Of a stretch of DNA of 34,530 nucleotides, positions 2,780-27,012 are shown one piece after another. Each line of letters starts with the position of its first letter. Position 1 is the first letter of the stretch. Source of the DNA: an uncultured Lactobacillus sp. (GTDB lineage: Bacteria; Bacillota; Bacilli; Lactobacillales; Lactobacillaceae). The notes below the pieces were generated by a model. It ran no database searches. It saw only the letters and a program-made list of their open reading frames with translations, and had not been told where the DNA came from. A program made the translations under genes and the position numbers. The DNA lies in assembly GCA_945971245.1 (NCBI GenBank), contig CAMFOZ010000004.1, positions 1 through 34,530 on the forward strand. Direction: 5' to 3'.

Positions 2780-3667
2780 ATGGCATTTCAAAACATAACA
2801 ATTGCCGGAACCGGTGTCCTGGGTAGTCAAATCGCCTACCAGACGGCACTCAACGGCTTTAAAGTTACGGCGTATGATTTAGATGTCGATGCCGCCAAGC
2901 AGCGGGTATTGGCGTTGAAGGACAGTTACAAGCGTGATCTGGACCTGACCGATGAAGACTTCCAAGCTGGACTAAACAACCTGACCTTTACGACCAATCT
3001 AGAAGAGGCGGTTCAAGACGCTGATTATGTTATCGAAGCTTTGCCTGAAGAACTGTCGATCAAGGCAGATTTTTATAAGCAGCTCTCAAAGTTAGCTACA
3101 GCTAAGGCGATCTTTGCCAGCAACTCGTCGACAATGGTCCCAAGTCAGCTGGTAAAGTACGTTGACCGGCCACAGAAGTTCCTCAACATGCACTTTGCTA
3201 ATATGATTTGGAAGTGCAACGTTGCTGAAATTATGGGAACGGACCAGACGGATCCAGCCGTTTACCAAGCAGTAGTTGACTTTGCTCGGGCCATCAAGAT
3301 GGTACCGATCGAGATTCACAAGGAGCAACCAGGTTATGTCTTAAATTCTCTGTTGATCCCGTTTGTTGTTAGCGCCATGAGCTTGTGGGTTAAGGGAGTA
3401 GCTGATCCGGAGACCGTCGATAAGGATTGGATGATCTCAACCGGGGCTCCAGTCGGTCCATTCATCATGCTTGATGATGTCGGTCTGCGGACGGTCTGGA
3501 ACATCGTCAACGAGCTTTATGCGACCCAACATAAGGAACTGTTCAAGCAGATTGCCGATAAGTTAAAGGAAAAGATTGATGCCGGTCAAGAGGGCCTTGA
3601 ATCCGGAGAAGGCTTCTACAAGTACCCGCATCCGGCCTTTGAAGATCCAGACTTTCTTAAGAAATAG
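2780..3667 (+). CDS. 3-hydroxyacyl-CoA dehydrogenase family protein (paralogue 1)
   Basis: N-terminal Rossmann motif GTGVLGSQIAYQTAL, ASNSS and MHFAN segments of the 3HCDH family. Confidence 0.85.
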   Translation: MAFQNITIAGTGVLGSQIAYQTALNGFKVTAYDLDVDAAKQRVLALKDSYKRDLDLTDEDFQAGLNNLTFTTNLEEAVQDADYVIEALPEELSIKADFYKQLSKLATAKAIFASNSSTMVPSQLVKYVDRPQKFLNMHFANMIWKCNVAEIMGTDQTDPAVYQAVVDFARAIKMVPIEIHKEQPGYVLNSLLIPFVVSAMSLWVKGVADPETVDKDWMISTGAPVGPFIMLDDVGLRTVWNIVNELYATQHKELFKQIADKLKEKIDAGQEGLESGEGFYKYPHPAFEDPDFLKK

Positions 3668-3678
3668 GGGCGAAAATT

Positions 3679-4569
3679 ATGACATTTAAGAATATTACGG
3701 TTGCTGGTGCAGGGGTTTTAGGTAGCCAGATTGCCTATCAGACTGCCCTGAGTGGTTTTAAGGTAACGGTATATAACCATCACATTGACACGGCCCAACG
3801 GCGAATCACAGCTTTGAAGAAGGACTACCAGCGTGATCTGGGGCTGAGCGATGAAGAATTTCAGGCAGGCTTGGATAATATTGTTAACATCACAACCGAC
3901 CTGCAGGAAGCGGTCCAAGATGCTGACTATGTTATCGAGGCGCTGCCAGAATCACTGCCTCTCAAGGAGAAGTTCTACACGGAACTGTCCAAACTGGCAC
4001 CTGCCAAGACGGTCTTTGCAAGCAACTCATCTTCCTTTGTACCGAGCCAGTTGGTGAAGTACGTTGATCGGCCGGCAAAGTTTCTTCACATGCACTTTGC
4101 TAACAAGATCTGGCGCTTCAATGTTGCCGAAATCATGGGAACTGACCAAACAGATCCGGCGGTTTACCAGGAGGTTGTTGATTTTGCCCGGGCGATTAAG
4201 ATGGTGCCAATTGAAGTTCATAAAGAACAACATGGCTACGTCCTCAATGCGGTTTTGATGCCGTTGATTGGGGCGGCCTTACAGCTGTGGGCTAACGGGG
4301 TTTCTGACCCGCACACCATTGATAAGGATTGGATGATCTCAACCCATTCACCAATGGGACCGTTCATGATCCTCGACATGGTAGGTCTCCGGACGCCACT
4401 ACAGATGGAAGACAACCTATATGAAGCGACCCATGCGGAAATCCACAAGCAGATTGCCGATAAGCTGAAGGCGATGGTTGACGCTGGTCACGTTGGCCAG
4501 GAATCGGGACAAGGGTTCTACCATTACCCACACCCCGAGTTTGAAGATCCGTCTTTCTTACGGGCATAG
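3679..4569 (+). CDS. 3-hydroxyacyl-CoA dehydrogenase family protein (paralogue 2)
   Basis: Close tandem paralogue of 2780..3667 along its full length (GAGVLGSQIAYQTALSGFKV, HFANKIW). Confidence 0.85.
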   Translation: MTFKNITVAGAGVLGSQIAYQTALSGFKVTVYNHHIDTAQRRITALKKDYQRDLGLSDEEFQAGLDNIVNITTDLQEAVQDADYVIEALPESLPLKEKFYTELSKLAPAKTVFASNSSSFVPSQLVKYVDRPAKFLHMHFANKIWRFNVAEIMGTDQTDPAVYQEVVDFARAIKMVPIEVHKEQHGYVLNAVLMPLIGAALQLWANGVSDPHTIDKDWMISTHSPMGPFMILDMVGLRTPLQMEDNLYEATHAEIHKQIADKLKAMVDAGHVGQESGQGFYHYPHPEFEDPSFLRA

Positions 4570-20994: not shown

Positions 20995-21037
20995 AAAAGC
21001 ACCCTACCTCATTTAGTTGAGGGCAGGGTGCTTTTTT
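20995..21037. terminator. Bidirectional terminator between azlD and methyltransferase
   Basis: AAAAGCACCCT...AGGGTGCTTTTTT between convergent genes. Confidence 0.85.
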
Positions 21038-22010
21038 AATCTGCGGGATTATTGCTATGGTTACGACGATGGGCTTGCTGGACAGCGCGGGTGTTGCGTT
21101 CCCAGAAGACCCCGTCTGTGTAGCCCTGAATATCGTCGCCCGCCTTGGTCTGTTGAAGGCGGTATTCCCCCCAGGCGGTGTAGAGAAGGCTCTGCTCAAT
21201 CCCGATGAAGTGGCGATTAAGCTTCTTGGCGGTAACCAGGCTGGAGCCGGCGCCGGCGAAGGGGTCGAGAATCAGGTCGCCGGGGTTGGTGCTGGCCAGG
21301 ATGACCTTGGCTAACAGCTTTTCTGGCTTCTGGGTCGGGTGTCCGGTATTTTCGGGCATCGACCAGTAGGGGATGGAGATGTCATCCCAGAAGTTAGAGG
21401 GCATGGTGTCGCGGAAACGCCCGGCCGCTGTCTCCTGCCAATCCCGGGCCTTACCAGCGACACGGTAGGGGGCGATGACCTGCCGCCGCTGCTTAACCTG
21501 ATCAACGTTGAAGGTGTAATTGGACTGGTCACGAACAAGGAACCAGATATCCTCCATGCCGTTTTTCCAGTTAGTCTTGGCCCCCCGGCCTTTCTCACGT
21601 TGCCAGGTAATCCGGTTCTTGATAGTGAAGTTACTGGCTAGGACCGGGGCGAGGGCGATACTGGTCTGCCAATCGGCGAAGACATAGAGACTGGCGTGTG
21701 GCTTTAACTTAGCGGTCAGGGCATCAATCCAACGCTGGGTATAGGCCTGATAGTCCTGGTCGCTCATCTTCTTGAAGTTGAGACCATCATACTTTTTATC
21801 GAGGTTGTATGGCGGGTCGACAATTGCCAGATCAGCAACTTGATCCGGGAGTTGCTTGAGAATCCGAAACGCGTCCCCGTTGATGGTCTGGTCAATGACC
21901 GATGATAGCGTGCTAAGCTGGTCACCCTCATGGCGGATCCGTTCGAGGACGCCGGCTGGAGCATCCGCCAGCGGAAAGTCGATCGTCTTGTTGCGTGCCG
22001 ATTTAGTCAT
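21036..22010 (-). CDS. Beta-class site-specific DNA methyltransferase (orphan, YhdJ-like)
   Basis: Motif IV DPPYNLDKKYDGLNF precedes motif I LDPFAGAGSSLVTAKKLNRHFIGIE; GHPTQKPEKLL motif X region; AAGGAGG before ATG 22010. Confidence 0.9.
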   Translation of the reverse strand: MTKSARNKTIDFPLADAPAGVLERIRHEGDQLSTLSSVIDQTINGDAFRILKQLPDQVADLAIVDPPYNLDKKYDGLNFKKMSDQDYQAYTQRWIDALTAKLKPHASLYVFADWQTSIALAPVLASNFTIKNRITWQREKGRGAKTNWKNGMEDIWFLVRDQSNYTFNVDQVKQRRQVIAPYRVAGKARDWQETAAGRFRDTMPSNFWDDISIPYWSMPENTGHPTQKPEKLLAKVILASTNPGDLILDPFAGAGSSLVTAKKLNRHFIGIEQSLLYTAWGEYRLQQTKAGDDIQGYTDGVFWERNTRAVQQAHRRNHSNNPAD

Positions 22011-22091
22011 GATGGGCCTCCTTATCAAAATAAATACTAGTTAAGATCATACCATACCGGGCGCGTGATATGAGAAATTTAATAAAGAGTG

Positions 22092-22120
22092 TTGACAACC
22101 CCACTGAAAGCGTCTAGTAT
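22092..22120 (+). promoter_or_regulatory. Promoter for pyr operon
   Basis: TTGACA-17 nt-TAGTAT. Confidence 0.65.
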
Positions 22121-22137
22121 TATGGGCAATCGAAATA

Positions 22138-22228
22138 CCTTTAACTTAGTCCAGCGAGGCTAGGAAGGATTTAATTGAGCGTTAGAATATCTCGGCCTTC
22201 TTAGTGCACCACTGAGGAGGCCGTTTTT
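22138..22228 (+). promoter_or_regulatory. PyrR-type transcription attenuator 1
   Basis: Binding-loop consensus AGTCCAGCGAGGCT; CTAGGAAGG (22160-22168) can pair with CCTTCTTAG (22196-22204) as antiterminator; terminator CGGCCTTCTTAGTG-cac-CACTGAGGAGGCCGTTTTT. Confidence 0.85.
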
Positions 22229-22312
22229 ATGCAGAATTTCCCGGGCCAACTCAGGGTGTCGGAAGGAAGTTTCGCCCACTTAATCAAATAGGTATTTTTG
22301 AAAGAACTGAGC

Positions 22313-22440
22313 CATTTAATTGTCTCCCGTGAGAGCAGAATCGGTGCAGTGTTTTCAGCCTATCTAACATAAGCAAAAAACACACGAAAAGCAGCGTGAC
22401 CGCAAACCAGGGGACTGGATCGGTTGACGCTGCTTTTGTT
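22313..22440 (+). promoter_or_regulatory. Candidate second PyrR-type attenuator immediately before pyrB
   Basis: TTTAATTGTCTCCCGTGAGAGCAGAA resembles the PyrR loop (TCCNGNGAGR), followed by terminator stem AAAAGCAGCGT...ACGCTGCTTTTGTT. Confidence 0.55.
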
Positions 22441-22470
22441 ACTTATGCAAAGAAAAAGGAGATCTATTTG

Positions 22471-23400
22471 ATGATTAGTACTGAACGAATTCAACCAAAC
22501 GTTGTCACTGTTGCCGACATGGATGCTGAGGATGCCCTGGACCTGATCAACGAGGCCGAGGAATACAAGCACGGCAAGAAGGCGGAACTAACCCGGCCAG
22601 CCTACGCCGCTAACCTCTTCTTCGAAAATTCAACCCGGACCAAGACCAGCTTCCAGATGGCCGAGATGAAATTAGGGATGCACGTAATGCAGTTTGAAGC
22701 GGGCACCAGTTCCGTCAAGAAGGGTGAAAGCCTCTATGATACCGTTAAGACGATGGAATCAATTGGGGTTGATATCGCCGTCATCCGTCACCCCGAAAAC
22801 GAATACTACAAAGAACTGATCAAGCACCCGGGCCTCAAGATCGGGATTGCCAACGGTGGTGACGGCAGTGGCCAGCACCCATCCCAATGCCTGCTCGACA
22901 TGATGACGATCCACGAGGAATTCGGTAACTTCAAGGGCCTCAAGGTACTGATCATCGGTGACCTGTCCCACTCCCGGGTGGCCCACTCCAACGCCATGAT
23001 GCTCAACCGGCTGGGGGCCGAGGTCTACTTTGCCGGCCCTCAGGAATGGTACGACGACGAACTGGCCCAATACGGGACTTTCGGCGACTTTGACGAACTG
23101 CTTCCTAAGATGGACGTGGTCAACCTGCTACGGGTCCAGAACGAACGGCTGTCCGGTGCAGAAAACGGCGCATTCGATGCTGAGAAGTACCACCAGCAAT
23201 ACGGCCTGACCAAGGAACGTTACAACAAGATGAAGAAGGGTGCCATCATCATGCACCCGGCACCGGTTAACCGGGGCGTCGAAATCGACAGTGACCTGGT
23301 TGAGGCCCCGAATTCCCGGATCTTCCGTCAGATGCAAAACGGGGTCTTCACGCGGATGGCCATCTTGAGTCGGATCCTGCGCTACAAGGGTATTATGTAA
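22471..23400 (+). CDS. pyrB: Aspartate carbamoyltransferase catalytic subunit
   Basis: [52 protein letters not shown]. Confidence 0.97.
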
Positions 23401-23415
23401 GACGGGGGCGACACT

Positions 23416-24705
23416 ATGAGTCAAACCCTCCTGAAGAATGGCCGGCGTCTGGTCGGCGAGCAACTAGTTACCAGTGACGTTCTGATTGAGGACGGCAAGA
23501 TCATCGCAATTGGGACCGACCTTAATGCCAGTACTGACGCCCAGGTGATTGACCTGAATAATAACCTGATCACCCCGGGCCTGGTCGACATCCATGTTCA
23601 CCTCCGCGAGCCAGGTTACACCAACAAGGAAACAATTGCGACCGGGAGTCGGGCCGCGGCCCACGGTGGCTTCACCACGATCGCTGCAATGGCGAACCTA
23701 AAGCCCACCTGTGACACGCCCGAACGCTTCCGTGCCCAGGAAGCCCGTAACGCCAAGGACGGCGTAATCAAGATCATCCAGTACTCACCCGTCACCAAGA
23801 ACCGGGCGGGGAAAGAACCGGTCGACGTTACTGCCCAGTACGCAGCGGGGGCCCGCCTTTTCAGCGATGACGGGGCCGGTATTCAAGATGCTGGCGTCGT
23901 CTACCGGGCTATGCAACAACTCGCCAAGTATGACCTACCACTGTGTGACCACGCCCAGGATAACCAGCTGGCTAACGGTGGGGTGATCAACGACGGTCCG
24001 GTTGCCAAGAAGATGGGGCTGCCGGGGATGCCAAAGATCAGCGAGACGGCCCAGATTGCCAGAAACATCGTGATCGCCCAGGCCACCGGTGCCCATTACC
24101 ATGTCTGCCACGTTTCAACCAAGGAAAGCATTGAACTGGTCCGGCACGCCAAGCGGTTGGGGATCAACGTCACCTGTGAGGTTACCCCCCACCACCTCCT
24201 GCTAGCCGATGCAGATATTCCGGATGATGACGCGGAGTACAAAATGAACCCACCGCTGCGGAGTCGGGAAGATCAAGAAGCCTGCCTGGCCGGTCTGCTT
24301 GATGGAACCATCGATTGCATTGCAACTGACCACGCTCCGCACACGGATGTCGAGAAGCACCAGGGCTTCCTGGCCTCACCGAACGGGATTGTCGGTAGTG
24401 AAACCGCCTTTGCCCTGCTCTACACCCGCTACGTTAAGAACGGGATCTTCACTCTGGGCCAGTTAATCGACTGGCTGAGCGGGGCTCCGTGCCGGGTGTT
24501 CAAGCTGACTAACGCTGGTCAGCTCCAGGTTGGAGATCCTGCAGATATCGCGGTCTTCGACATTGATCACCAGACCACGATCAAGGAAGACCAGTTCTTC
24601 TCAAAGGGGCACAACACCCCGTTTGTTGATGACCAGGTCTATGGAGCAACCGTAAAAACATTCGTTGATGGCAAGTTGGTTTACGATCGGGAGGATGCAG
24701 AATGA
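23416..24705 (+). CDS. pyrC: Dihydroorotase
   Basis: PGLVDIHVHLREPGYTNKETIATGSRAAAHGGFTT, CIATDHAPH. Confidence 0.97.
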   Translation: MSQTLLKNGRRLVGEQLVTSDVLIEDGKIIAIGTDLNASTDAQVIDLNNNLITPGLVDIHVHLREPGYTNKETIATGSRAAAHGGFTTIAAMANLKPTCDTPERFRAQEARNAKDGVIKIIQYSPVTKNRAGKEPVDVTAQYAAGARLFSDDGAGIQDAGVVYRAMQQLAKYDLPLCDHAQDNQLANGGVINDGPVAKKMGLPGMPKISETAQIARNIVIAQATGAHYHVCHVSTKESIELVRHAKRLGINVTCEVTPHHLLLADADIPDDDAEYKMNPPLRSREDQEACLAGLLDGTIDCIATDHAPHTDVEKHQGFLASPNGIVGSETAFALLYTRYVKNGIFTLGQLIDWLSGAPCRVFKLTNAGQLQVGDPADIAVFDIDHQTTIKEDQFFSKGHNTPFVDDQVYGATVKTFVDGKLVYDREDAE

Positions 24706-25628
24706 ACGATGAACAACGGTTGGTAGTCGAACTGCCGGGCTTGTCCCTGAAGAACCCCGTGATCGCCGCTAGTGGTACCTGTGGGTATGGTCGAGAAATC
24801 GCCAGTAACTATGATCTCAACCGATTGGGGTCGTTGGTGATGAAGTCGACCACCCTGCACCCGCGTTCGGGTAACCCGCGGCCCCGGGTCTGCCATACGA
24901 GTGCCGGTTGGTTAAACGCCAACGGTCTACAGAACGTCGGTGTCCAACGGGTCGTGGATGAGAAGATCCCGTGGCTGCAGGTCAACTACCCCAAGCTACC
25001 TGTGATCGCCAGTGTGGCCGGTTTCTCCAACGACGAGTACGTGGAAGTAACTGATAAGCTGACGACCGGTGGCGGGGTTAACGCCCTGGAATTGAACGTC
25101 TCCTGTCCAAACGTCAAGCACGGCGGCCTGGCGATGGGCACCGATCCAGAGACGTTGGAACAGCTGGTTAAGCAGGTCGTTGCCGCGGCCCACGGGGTGC
25201 CGGTCTATGTCAAACTGACTCCCAACGTCACCAACATTGTGCCCCTGGCCCAGGCAGCCGAACAGGGCGGGGCCAATGGGCTGGTGATGATCAACACCCT
25301 GACCGGATTGAGCATCAACCTGAAGACCCGACGGCCGGTTCTGGCCAACGTGACGGGCGGTCTGTCTGGCCCGGCCCTGAAGCCCATGGCCCTGCGGATG
25401 ATCCACCAGGTCCGGAGCATTTCCAAGATTCCAATTATCGGTGTGGGCGGAATCGAGAGTGCTGAGGATGTCCTGGAATTCATGATGGCTGGTGCCAACG
25501 CGGTTGAGGTCGGGGCCGCCAGTTTTCATGATCCACTAGCCCTGCCGAAGATTGTGGCGGAACTGCCGATGACGATGGATAAGTATGAGATTGAGAAGTT
25601 AACGGACCTATGGGAGGTAAAGTTTTGA
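24702..25628 (+). CDS. pyrD: Dihydroorotate dehydrogenase, class 1B catalytic subunit
   Basis: LPGLSLKNPVIAASGTCGYG, LELNVSCPNVKHGGLAMGTDPE (Cys in active-site segment), class 1B-like. Confidence 0.93.
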   Translation: MNDEQRLVVELPGLSLKNPVIAASGTCGYGREIASNYDLNRLGSLVMKSTTLHPRSGNPRPRVCHTSAGWLNANGLQNVGVQRVVDEKIPWLQVNYPKLPVIASVAGFSNDEYVEVTDKLTTGGGVNALELNVSCPNVKHGGLAMGTDPETLEQLVKQVVAAAHGVPVYVKLTPNVTNIVPLAQAAEQGGANGLVMINTLTGLSINLKTRRPVLANVTGGLSGPALKPMALRMIHQVRSISKIPIIGVGGIESAEDVLEFMMAGANAVEVGAASFHDPLALPKIVAELPMTMDKYEIEKLTDLWEVKF

Positions 25629-26356
25629 AACGCTATGTACCAATGGTCGCAATTGACGTGGCTACAAAGGAAGAAGCGGTCAAGCTGTTTGACGAGCTCG
25701 ATGTGACGCCGAAGCCGATTGTTAAAATCGGGATGGAAATGTACTACGGGCTGGGTCAGGAGATCGTTCGGGAAGCCCAGAAACGCGGCTTCAAGATCTT
25801 CCTTGACTTAAAGCTCTATGACATCCCCAACACGGTCCACCGGGCCATGGCCGCCATCGGCCGGCTCGGCATCGACTTCACCACCATCCACGCGGCAGGT
25901 GGGACCGAGATGCTGACGGCGGGTCTGGCTGGCCTAGAAGAGGGCGCTGTTCAGGCGGGGGTCCGGCCTGCTAAGCTCCTGGCAATCACCCAGCTGACCT
26001 CGATTGATGATGAAATTCTGCATGATCAACAGCATGTTGACCTTTCCCTGATCGAGTCGGTCCAGAACTATGCCCAGCTGGCGGAAAGTGTCGGTCTGGC
26101 TGGGGTGATCTGCTCGGCCCATGAACTTCCGGCAATTCGCCAGGTGACCCGGCCGGACTTTCTGTGTATCACGCCTGGCATTCGGCCATCGCTGGCGGTC
26201 CACGATGACCAGAAGCGGGTGGTGACCCCAGCTCAGGCCCGAGAACTTGGTAGCAATGGCATTGTCGTGGGGCGGCCAATCACCCAGAGTGCCGACCCAG
26301 TCGCAGCATACCAGCAGATTCAACAAGCATTTTTAGCAAATGAGGAGGAAAAATAA
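25625..26356 (+). CDS. pyrF: Orotidine-5'-phosphate decarboxylase
   Basis: VAIDVATKEEAVKLFDEL, FLDLKLYDIPNTVHRA, ITPGIRP; probable TTG start at 25625 behind GGAGGT (ORF track starts at ATG 25610). Confidence 0.94.
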   Translation: MKRYVPMVAIDVATKEEAVKLFDELDVTPKPIVKIGMEMYYGLGQEIVREAQKRGFKIFLDLKLYDIPNTVHRAMAAIGRLGIDFTTIHAAGGTEMLTAGLAGLEEGAVQAGVRPAKLLAITQLTSIDDEILHDQQHVDLSLIESVQNYAQLAESVGLAGVICSAHELPAIRQVTRPDFLCITPGIRPSLAVHDDQKRVVTPAQARELGSNGIVVGRPITQSADPVAAYQQIQQAFLANEEEK

Positions 26357-26358
26357 TT

Positions 26359-27012
26359 ATGACTTATTCACAAAGAGTTGCTAAGGCATTATTAGATATT
26401 CACGCGGTTACCCTGAGCCCTGACAAACCCTACACATGGGCAAGCGGTCTGAAGTCCCCAATCTACACGGATAACCGCCTGACGATCTCCTACCCGGATG
26501 TGCGCCAAGCTATCTATAACGGGATGGAAGAACAGATCAACCTCCATTTTGCGGATGTGGACGTTATCGCCGGGACCGCGACGGCGGGGATTCCCCATGC
26601 TGCTTGGGTTGCCCAGGAGATGGGCCTGCCACTGGTATACGTACGGTCTAAGCCGAAGGACCACGGCCAGGGGCACCAGGTCGAAGGGGTGCTCAAACCC
26701 GGTCAAAAGGTCGTTGTGATCGATGACCTGATCTCCACTGGTGGTAGTGTCCTCAATGCAGTCCGGGCGATCAACAATACCGGTGCCCAGGTCATCGGCA
26801 TGGTCGCTGTCTTCACCTACCAACTCCAGGCGGCCGAACAGAACTTCTTAGCCGACGACCTGAAGTACTATGCCGTTACCGACTACACAACTTTGATTAA
26901 GGAAGCTCAGACTACCGACCAGATCAGCGCTGACCACCTGAAGTCTCTTCAGCAATGGCGTGAAGACCCCATGAAGTGGAGCAAGGAACACAGCCTTAAT
27001 GCAGTTGGCTAA
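26359..27012 (+). CDS. pyrE: Orotate phosphoribosyltransferase
   Basis: SPIYTDNRLTISYPDVR, VVVIDDLISTGGSVLNA. Confidence 0.96.
   Translation: MTYSQRVAKALLDIHAVTLSPDKPYTWASGLKSPIYTDNRLTISYPDVRQAIYNGMEEQINLHFADVDVIAGTATAGIPHAAWVAQEMGLPLVYVRSKPKDHGQGHQVEGVLKPGQKVVVIDDLISTGGSVLNAVRAINNTGAQVIGMVAVFTYQLQAAEQNFLADDLKYYAVTDYTTLIKEAQTTDQISADHLKSLQQWREDPMKWSKEHSLNAVG

Follow-up and report, generated by a model that had tools for sequence, protein, structure and literature searches.

Two PyrR-type attenuators in series upstream of pyrB, with a covarying helix between them, probably descend from an attenuator-pyrR-attenuator operon

The window, by which we mean the whole 34,530-nucleotide stretch of DNA analysed, comes from a gut Limosilactobacillus genome (G000) and carries the pyrimidine operon pyrB-C-D-F-E (22471-27012). 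The pyrBCDFE leader contains two RNA off-switches in series. It is bordered on its 5' side by a divergent DNA methyltransferase-like gene and on its 3' side by pyrB, and each of its two elements places an intrinsic terminator upstream of a pyrimidine gene (Table 1). Transcription is expected to start near 22127. Element 1 (22134-22230) scores 55.6 bits against the Rfam PyrR family RF00515 and thus passes the gathering threshold of 54. The sequence and coordinates of the tandem given in the initial annotation are borne out, as is its statement that no ORF separates the two elements: nothing of gene length lies there, and the sole frame is one of 20 codons with an ATG start (22229-22291). Elsewhere in the window, two adjacent and clearly paralogous genes (2780-3667 and 3679-4569) are 3-hydroxyacyl-CoA dehydrogenase-like.

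Table 1. Positions and supporting evidence of the leader features and of the genes that border the leader.
Feature	Positions	Strand	Evidence or remark
DNA methyltransferase-like gene, divergent	21036-22028	-	5' border of the leader
Sigma-70-type promoter, TTGACA-17-TAGTAT	22092-22120	+	Consensus scan
Possible long-range helix P1, 5' strand (GAAAUACCU), partner 22290-22298	22132-22140	+	Overlaps the foot of hairpin 1
PyrR-binding hairpin 1 (anti-antiterminator), loop UCCAGCGAG at 22150-22158	22138-22168	+	RF00515; loop invariant in aligned leaders
Antiterminator 1, CTAGGAAGG (22160-22168) with CCTTCTTAG (22196-22204)	22160-22204	+	Direct complementarity, in agreement with the RF00515 alignment
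Intrinsic terminator 1, 14-bp stem 22193-22223, T5 22224-22228	22193-22228	+	RNAalifold, covarying pairs
H3 upstream strand, formed by the terminator 1 apex and 3' arm	22206-22222	+	Duplex of -24.5 kcal/mol
H3 downstream strand, past the T-run; pairing excludes terminator 1	22244-22259	+	Swap test
AGGUAUUUU box; able to pair with the 5' end, forming P1, or with the foot of hairpin 2 (AUAGG 22288-22292 to CCUAU 22359-22363)	22290-22298	+
PyrR-type hairpin 2: GCC/GGU lower stem, 3' internal loop rich in purines, U22323 bulged from the upper stem	22311-22345	+	Covariation; homology to G209
Candidate antiterminator 2: GUGUUUU 22349-22355 with AAAACAC 22377-22383, extended by UGC/GCA and CG/CG to the terminator foot	22342-22396	+
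Intrinsic terminator 2: stem 22387-22437, tail TTTTGTT	22387-22440	+	-27.5 kcal/mol; covarying stem
pyrB, ATG at 22471, first gene of the operon	22471-23400	+	ORFs and relatives

Hairpin 2 lies about 80 nt past the T-run of terminator 1 and presents the loop UCCCGUGAG (22325-22333), with the hexaloop CCGUGA at 22327-22332. In the alignment of element 2, the plan of hexaloop, upper stem, bulge and lower stem is present, with a 3' internal loop AGAAU and a lower stem ACC/GGU. The Rfam PyrR model returns no match to element 2, even at E <= 10, where chance hits alone appear. This blank is explained by the curated single-unit model, which misses units of this kind. A search of the genome for TTTAAN{2,6}TCCNGNGAG returned four matches, two of which are in this leader, and the reversed control returned none. 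By blastn of the leader, element 2 is conserved in other Limosilactobacillus species, and a blastn search of the plasmid collection gave zero matches.

To compare the second elements, 20 tandem leaders were aligned and three more (G065, G066 and G073) were added later by means of a covariance model. The loop UCCNGNGAG is present in all 23 second elements recovered and is invariant in the first element of the aligned 20 as well. RNAalifold recovers hairpin 2 with covarying pairs in its upper stem and terminator 2 with compensatory changes; the swap test for terminator 2 gave 1/20,000. PyrR of B. subtilis recognises ARUCCAGAGAGGYU (PMC7430163). Measured against this motif, UCCNGNGAG is kept throughout the 23; the flanks differ in the window (GUCUCCCGUGAGAGC) and are close in G077 and G014. 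The second-element loops of some relatives are near-canonical (TTCCAGAGAGGAC), reading GTTCCAGAGAGGAC in G077 and G014 and GTTCCTGTGAGGAC in G025. Within the genus, the covariance model gives 101-143 bits in 23 of the 54 genomes and does not exceed 53 bits elsewhere; as 17 of those 23 supplied its training sequences, these scores describe the distribution of the tandem and are not independent proof of it.

The first claim of the initial annotation, two PyrR-type attenuators back to back, is thus confirmed by the conserved loop and by the covarying hairpin 2 and terminator 2. Its description of the second loop as degenerate does not hold, as this is the ordinary form of post-pyrR attenuators in Lactobacillaceae, bulged base included. 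It had also named an Rfam scan as a check on element 2: only element 1 scores in that scan, and the relatives show such a score to be too weak a measure. By sequence comparison, element 2 is best described as a homolog of post-pyrR attenuators and, by score, not a member of RF00515.

The weakest part of the leader model is antiterminator 2, which overlaps terminator 2 slightly. Its swap test across lineages gave 105/20,000, and against shuffles it reaches p values of 0.003-0.03 in G029, G015, G077, G014 and G025, with p=0.31 in the window. Element 2 could accordingly be viewed as a relic, in which terminator and loop persist while PyrR is inactive, leaving at most a fixed partial terminator. 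The blank Rfam scan, the bulged base in the upper stem of hairpin 2 and the weakness of antiterminator 2 in the window lineage are what a relic might display. We nevertheless regard this as improbable: the loop invariants and the hairpin are kept in every recovered second element, with compensatory changes, and relatives such as G344, whose post-pyrR attenuator is single, show a similar extra base there.

The spacer between the two attenuators contains an additional helix, H3, in which terminator 1 pairs through its apex and 3' arm with sequence beyond its T-run. In the window, none of 500 shuffles yields a duplex as good as the native one. Across 29 leaders, the native pairing averages -21.9 kcal/mol, compared to -12.9 kcal/mol for swaps between lineages, and the native sum was not matched by any of 20,000 permutations in a swap test that used 12 representatives. 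Several Watson-Crick pair types occur at nearly every position of the helix. H3 is found in the window lineage, the reuteri-like lineage, pyrD leaders and pyrE-only leaders. H3-type pairing at p<=0.01 is seen in 17 of the 24 leaders of this locus, in contrast to 0 of 126 other PyrR attenuators, among which there is no clear counterpart. With this strongly covarying helix, and with no pyrR remnant detected, the spacer is not a passive scar.

The 20-codon frame in the spacer, MQNFPGQLRVSEGSFAHLIK, begins 8 nt past the GAGGAGG of the terminator 1 3' arm. G000, G001 and G002 keep it, G013 has a shortened version, and its ATG is missing from the pyrD leaders and from G028 and G062; a leader peptide therefore does not explain the conservation of the spacer, and we rejected this candidate. 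H3 would mask part of the Shine-Dalgarno-like GAGGAGG.

Because the second strand of H3 is transcribed only past the terminator, H3 stands outside the termination decision itself and must act on read-through RNA. The H3 fold is more stable than terminator 1 in several species, for example G013, G028, G036 and G007. For the window RNA, terminator 1 is favoured over the H3 fold by about 3 kcal/mol, and in the equilibrium ensemble of the whole leader it dominates, with H3 near 0. Formation of H3 in the window RNA would thus need the antiterminator or co-transcriptional folding. In our preferred reading, we propose that H3 acts as a latch that would remove terminator 1 from the read-through transcript and free its 5' arm for the antiterminator.

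A second long-range pairing, P1, could bring the 5' end of the leader to the AGGUAUUUU box. The P1 strands are complementary in 26 of 26 leaders, and each of the 11 representatives has domain 1 closed by P1 in its free minimum-energy fold. The strands hardly vary, and the swap test accordingly finds no informative covariation in them. The motif GGTATTTT is present in all 29 leaders examined, and the ensemble probabilities of the AGGUAUUUU box are divided between P1 and the foot of hairpin 2. H3 and the possible P1 might together constitute a coupled two-stage switch, in which read-through would lock a fold that lacks hairpin 1 and terminator 1, and the AGGUAUUUU box would relay the state of attenuator 1 to attenuator 2; we consider this scheme speculative and unlikely. 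In the pyrE-only leaders L011, L014, L016, L017, L019 and L020, the CUAGGU box can pair with an ACCUAG that overlaps the Shine-Dalgarno sequence AGGAGG, a pairing that could add translational control.

The tandem is present in 23 of 54 Limosilactobacillus genomes, upstream of pyrB (the window type), pyrD (for example G023, G036, G004 and G016) or pyrE (G025). The tandem sites between azlCD and cfa look like one locus. The arrangement attenuator-pyrR-attenuator is common in Lactobacillaceae. It is found before pyrB in other genera, namely in G209 (genus g26) and in several g19 genomes including G344, and in G388 (g28). It also occurs within Limosilactobacillus (G017, G035, G067 and G075), and in many cases pyrD or pyrF lies downstream. 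In G408, from another genus, two attenuators about 105 nt apart precede pyrB with no intervening gene, and the single PyrR hit of that genome lies elsewhere, outside the tandem.

Several observations concern the wider gene context. The genus is split by pyrB type, the window type being 80-100% and another about 55-59% identical. The pyrE copies at the purA locus are distinct from those at the azlCD locus (60-68% versus 71-78% identity to the window pyrE). The pyr and azl genes of G021 (L046) abut with zero intergenic bases, and there is no PyrR element genome-wide; this assembly looks like concatenated coding sequences. In the window genome, a PyrR element of 42.7 bits, below the cut-off, lies upstream of a gene for an NCS1 cytosine/uracil permease-like protein (G000:C9:6460-6579, L004).

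The two attenuators of the window differ in form. Attenuator 1 has the form of a pre-pyrR attenuator (ACCTTTAACTTAGTCC), and attenuator 2 is 82% identical over about 45 nt to the post-pyrR attenuator of G209, with 0 of 500 shuffles as good. The genome contains one PyrR hit of 178 aa, on another contig (C26:11272-11805) and with its own attenuator. Comparison with relatives at the site and a search for pyrR elsewhere, both suggested in the initial annotation, thus returned an attenuator-pyrR-attenuator order before pyrB or pyrD and a single pyrR copy on another contig. Of its proposal that the tandem is the scar of a lost pyrR or pyrP, the pyrR part is supported by the gene order in relatives and the homology to G209; for pyrP, nothing pointing to its presence at the window site was found. 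Gene order and attenuator homology make it very probable that pyrR once stood between the attenuators in the ancestor, and we favour a reading in which pyrR was lost from this position.

The spacer contains no detectable pyrR remnant (p 0.29-1.0), so that deletion in place and relocation of an attenuator-bearing block would look alike here. The main alternative is indeed an operon fusion, in which a pyrB-F block with attenuator 2 moved from behind pyrR to behind a pre-existing pyrE attenuator. Some species have attenuator 1 and H3 directly 5' of pyrE at the azlCD/cfa locus, with pyrR-attenuator-pyrF elsewhere, and the pyrR on C26 retains an attenuator of its own; both speak for such a fusion. 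In G025, however, pyrE is the only gene behind the two attenuators, and the AGGUAUUUU box is retained in the pyrE-only leaders. These two features fit a longer operon that eroded downstream of its tandem leader, and we judge relocation to be unlikely, if a serious competitor. The lack of a pyrR remnant would also suit a local duplication of one attenuator, with pyrR never having lain between the copies. That explanation is already disfavoured, and we give it very little weight: element 2 takes the form ACCATTTAATTG...CGGT, which is that of post-pyrR attenuators in several genera, whereas element 1 has the pre-pyrR form.

Taken together, two serial PyrR attenuators, descent from attenuator-pyrR-attenuator-pyrB and the spacer helix H3 form an account that we consider probable as a whole. 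Sequence comparison establishes the two PyrR-type hairpins, the two terminators, H3 and the ancestral order of genes in relatives, whereas binding of PyrR to hairpin 2, double gating, the direction and manner in which pyrR was lost and the role of H3 are inferred. When UMP is plentiful, PyrR-UMP would hold the hairpin, the antiterminator would be blocked, and the terminator would halt RNA polymerase. A transcript reaching pyrB would have escaped both stops, and AND-like gating by the two attenuators is plausible. With pyrR gone from between them and both gates kept, the biosynthetic genes would still lie behind two gates; in 23 of 54 species genomes both appear to be retained under selection. 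The spacer would have gained H3, by which post-terminator sequence sequesters the terminator 1 apex and 3' arm in read-through RNA only; this most likely prevents re-formation of terminator 1 and makes its 5' arm available to the antiterminator. H3 is a statistically strong, unexplained helix between a terminator and sequence beyond its own T-run. It could matter only once the terminator has been read through, a stage commonly placed after the decision.

A targeted search of the open literature, which covered few subscription journals, found neither tandem PyrR attenuators without a gene between them nor H3, and the consulted passages of PMC3766115 and PMC2965389 make no mention of tandem PyrR attenuators. 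In B. subtilis, PyrR-UMP acts at AR1-3, located upstream of pyrR, pyrP and pyrB (PMC7430163); these are serial, so gating in series is already known. Like AR1-3 (RF00515), the window leader places a PyrR-type hairpin, an antiterminator and a terminator serially before biosynthetic genes. In B. subtilis each attenuator precedes its own gene, whereas the window has two in one leader, no gene between them, and H3 in addition. The attenuator-pyrR-attenuator-pyrB/pyrD operons of Lactobacillaceae (G209, G344, G388 and G017) have homologous attenuators in the same order, but retain pyrR between them and lack H3-type pairing at p<=0.01. The window leader shows how a classic series of protein-sensed attenuators can be rearranged once the regulator gene leaves the operon. 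Its two sensing elements per leader also recall the tandem glycine riboswitch, two copies of which precede 82% of glycine-regulated operons according to PMC3766115. Unlike the glycine riboswitch, the window leader has a separate terminator in each unit and relies on a protein as sensor.
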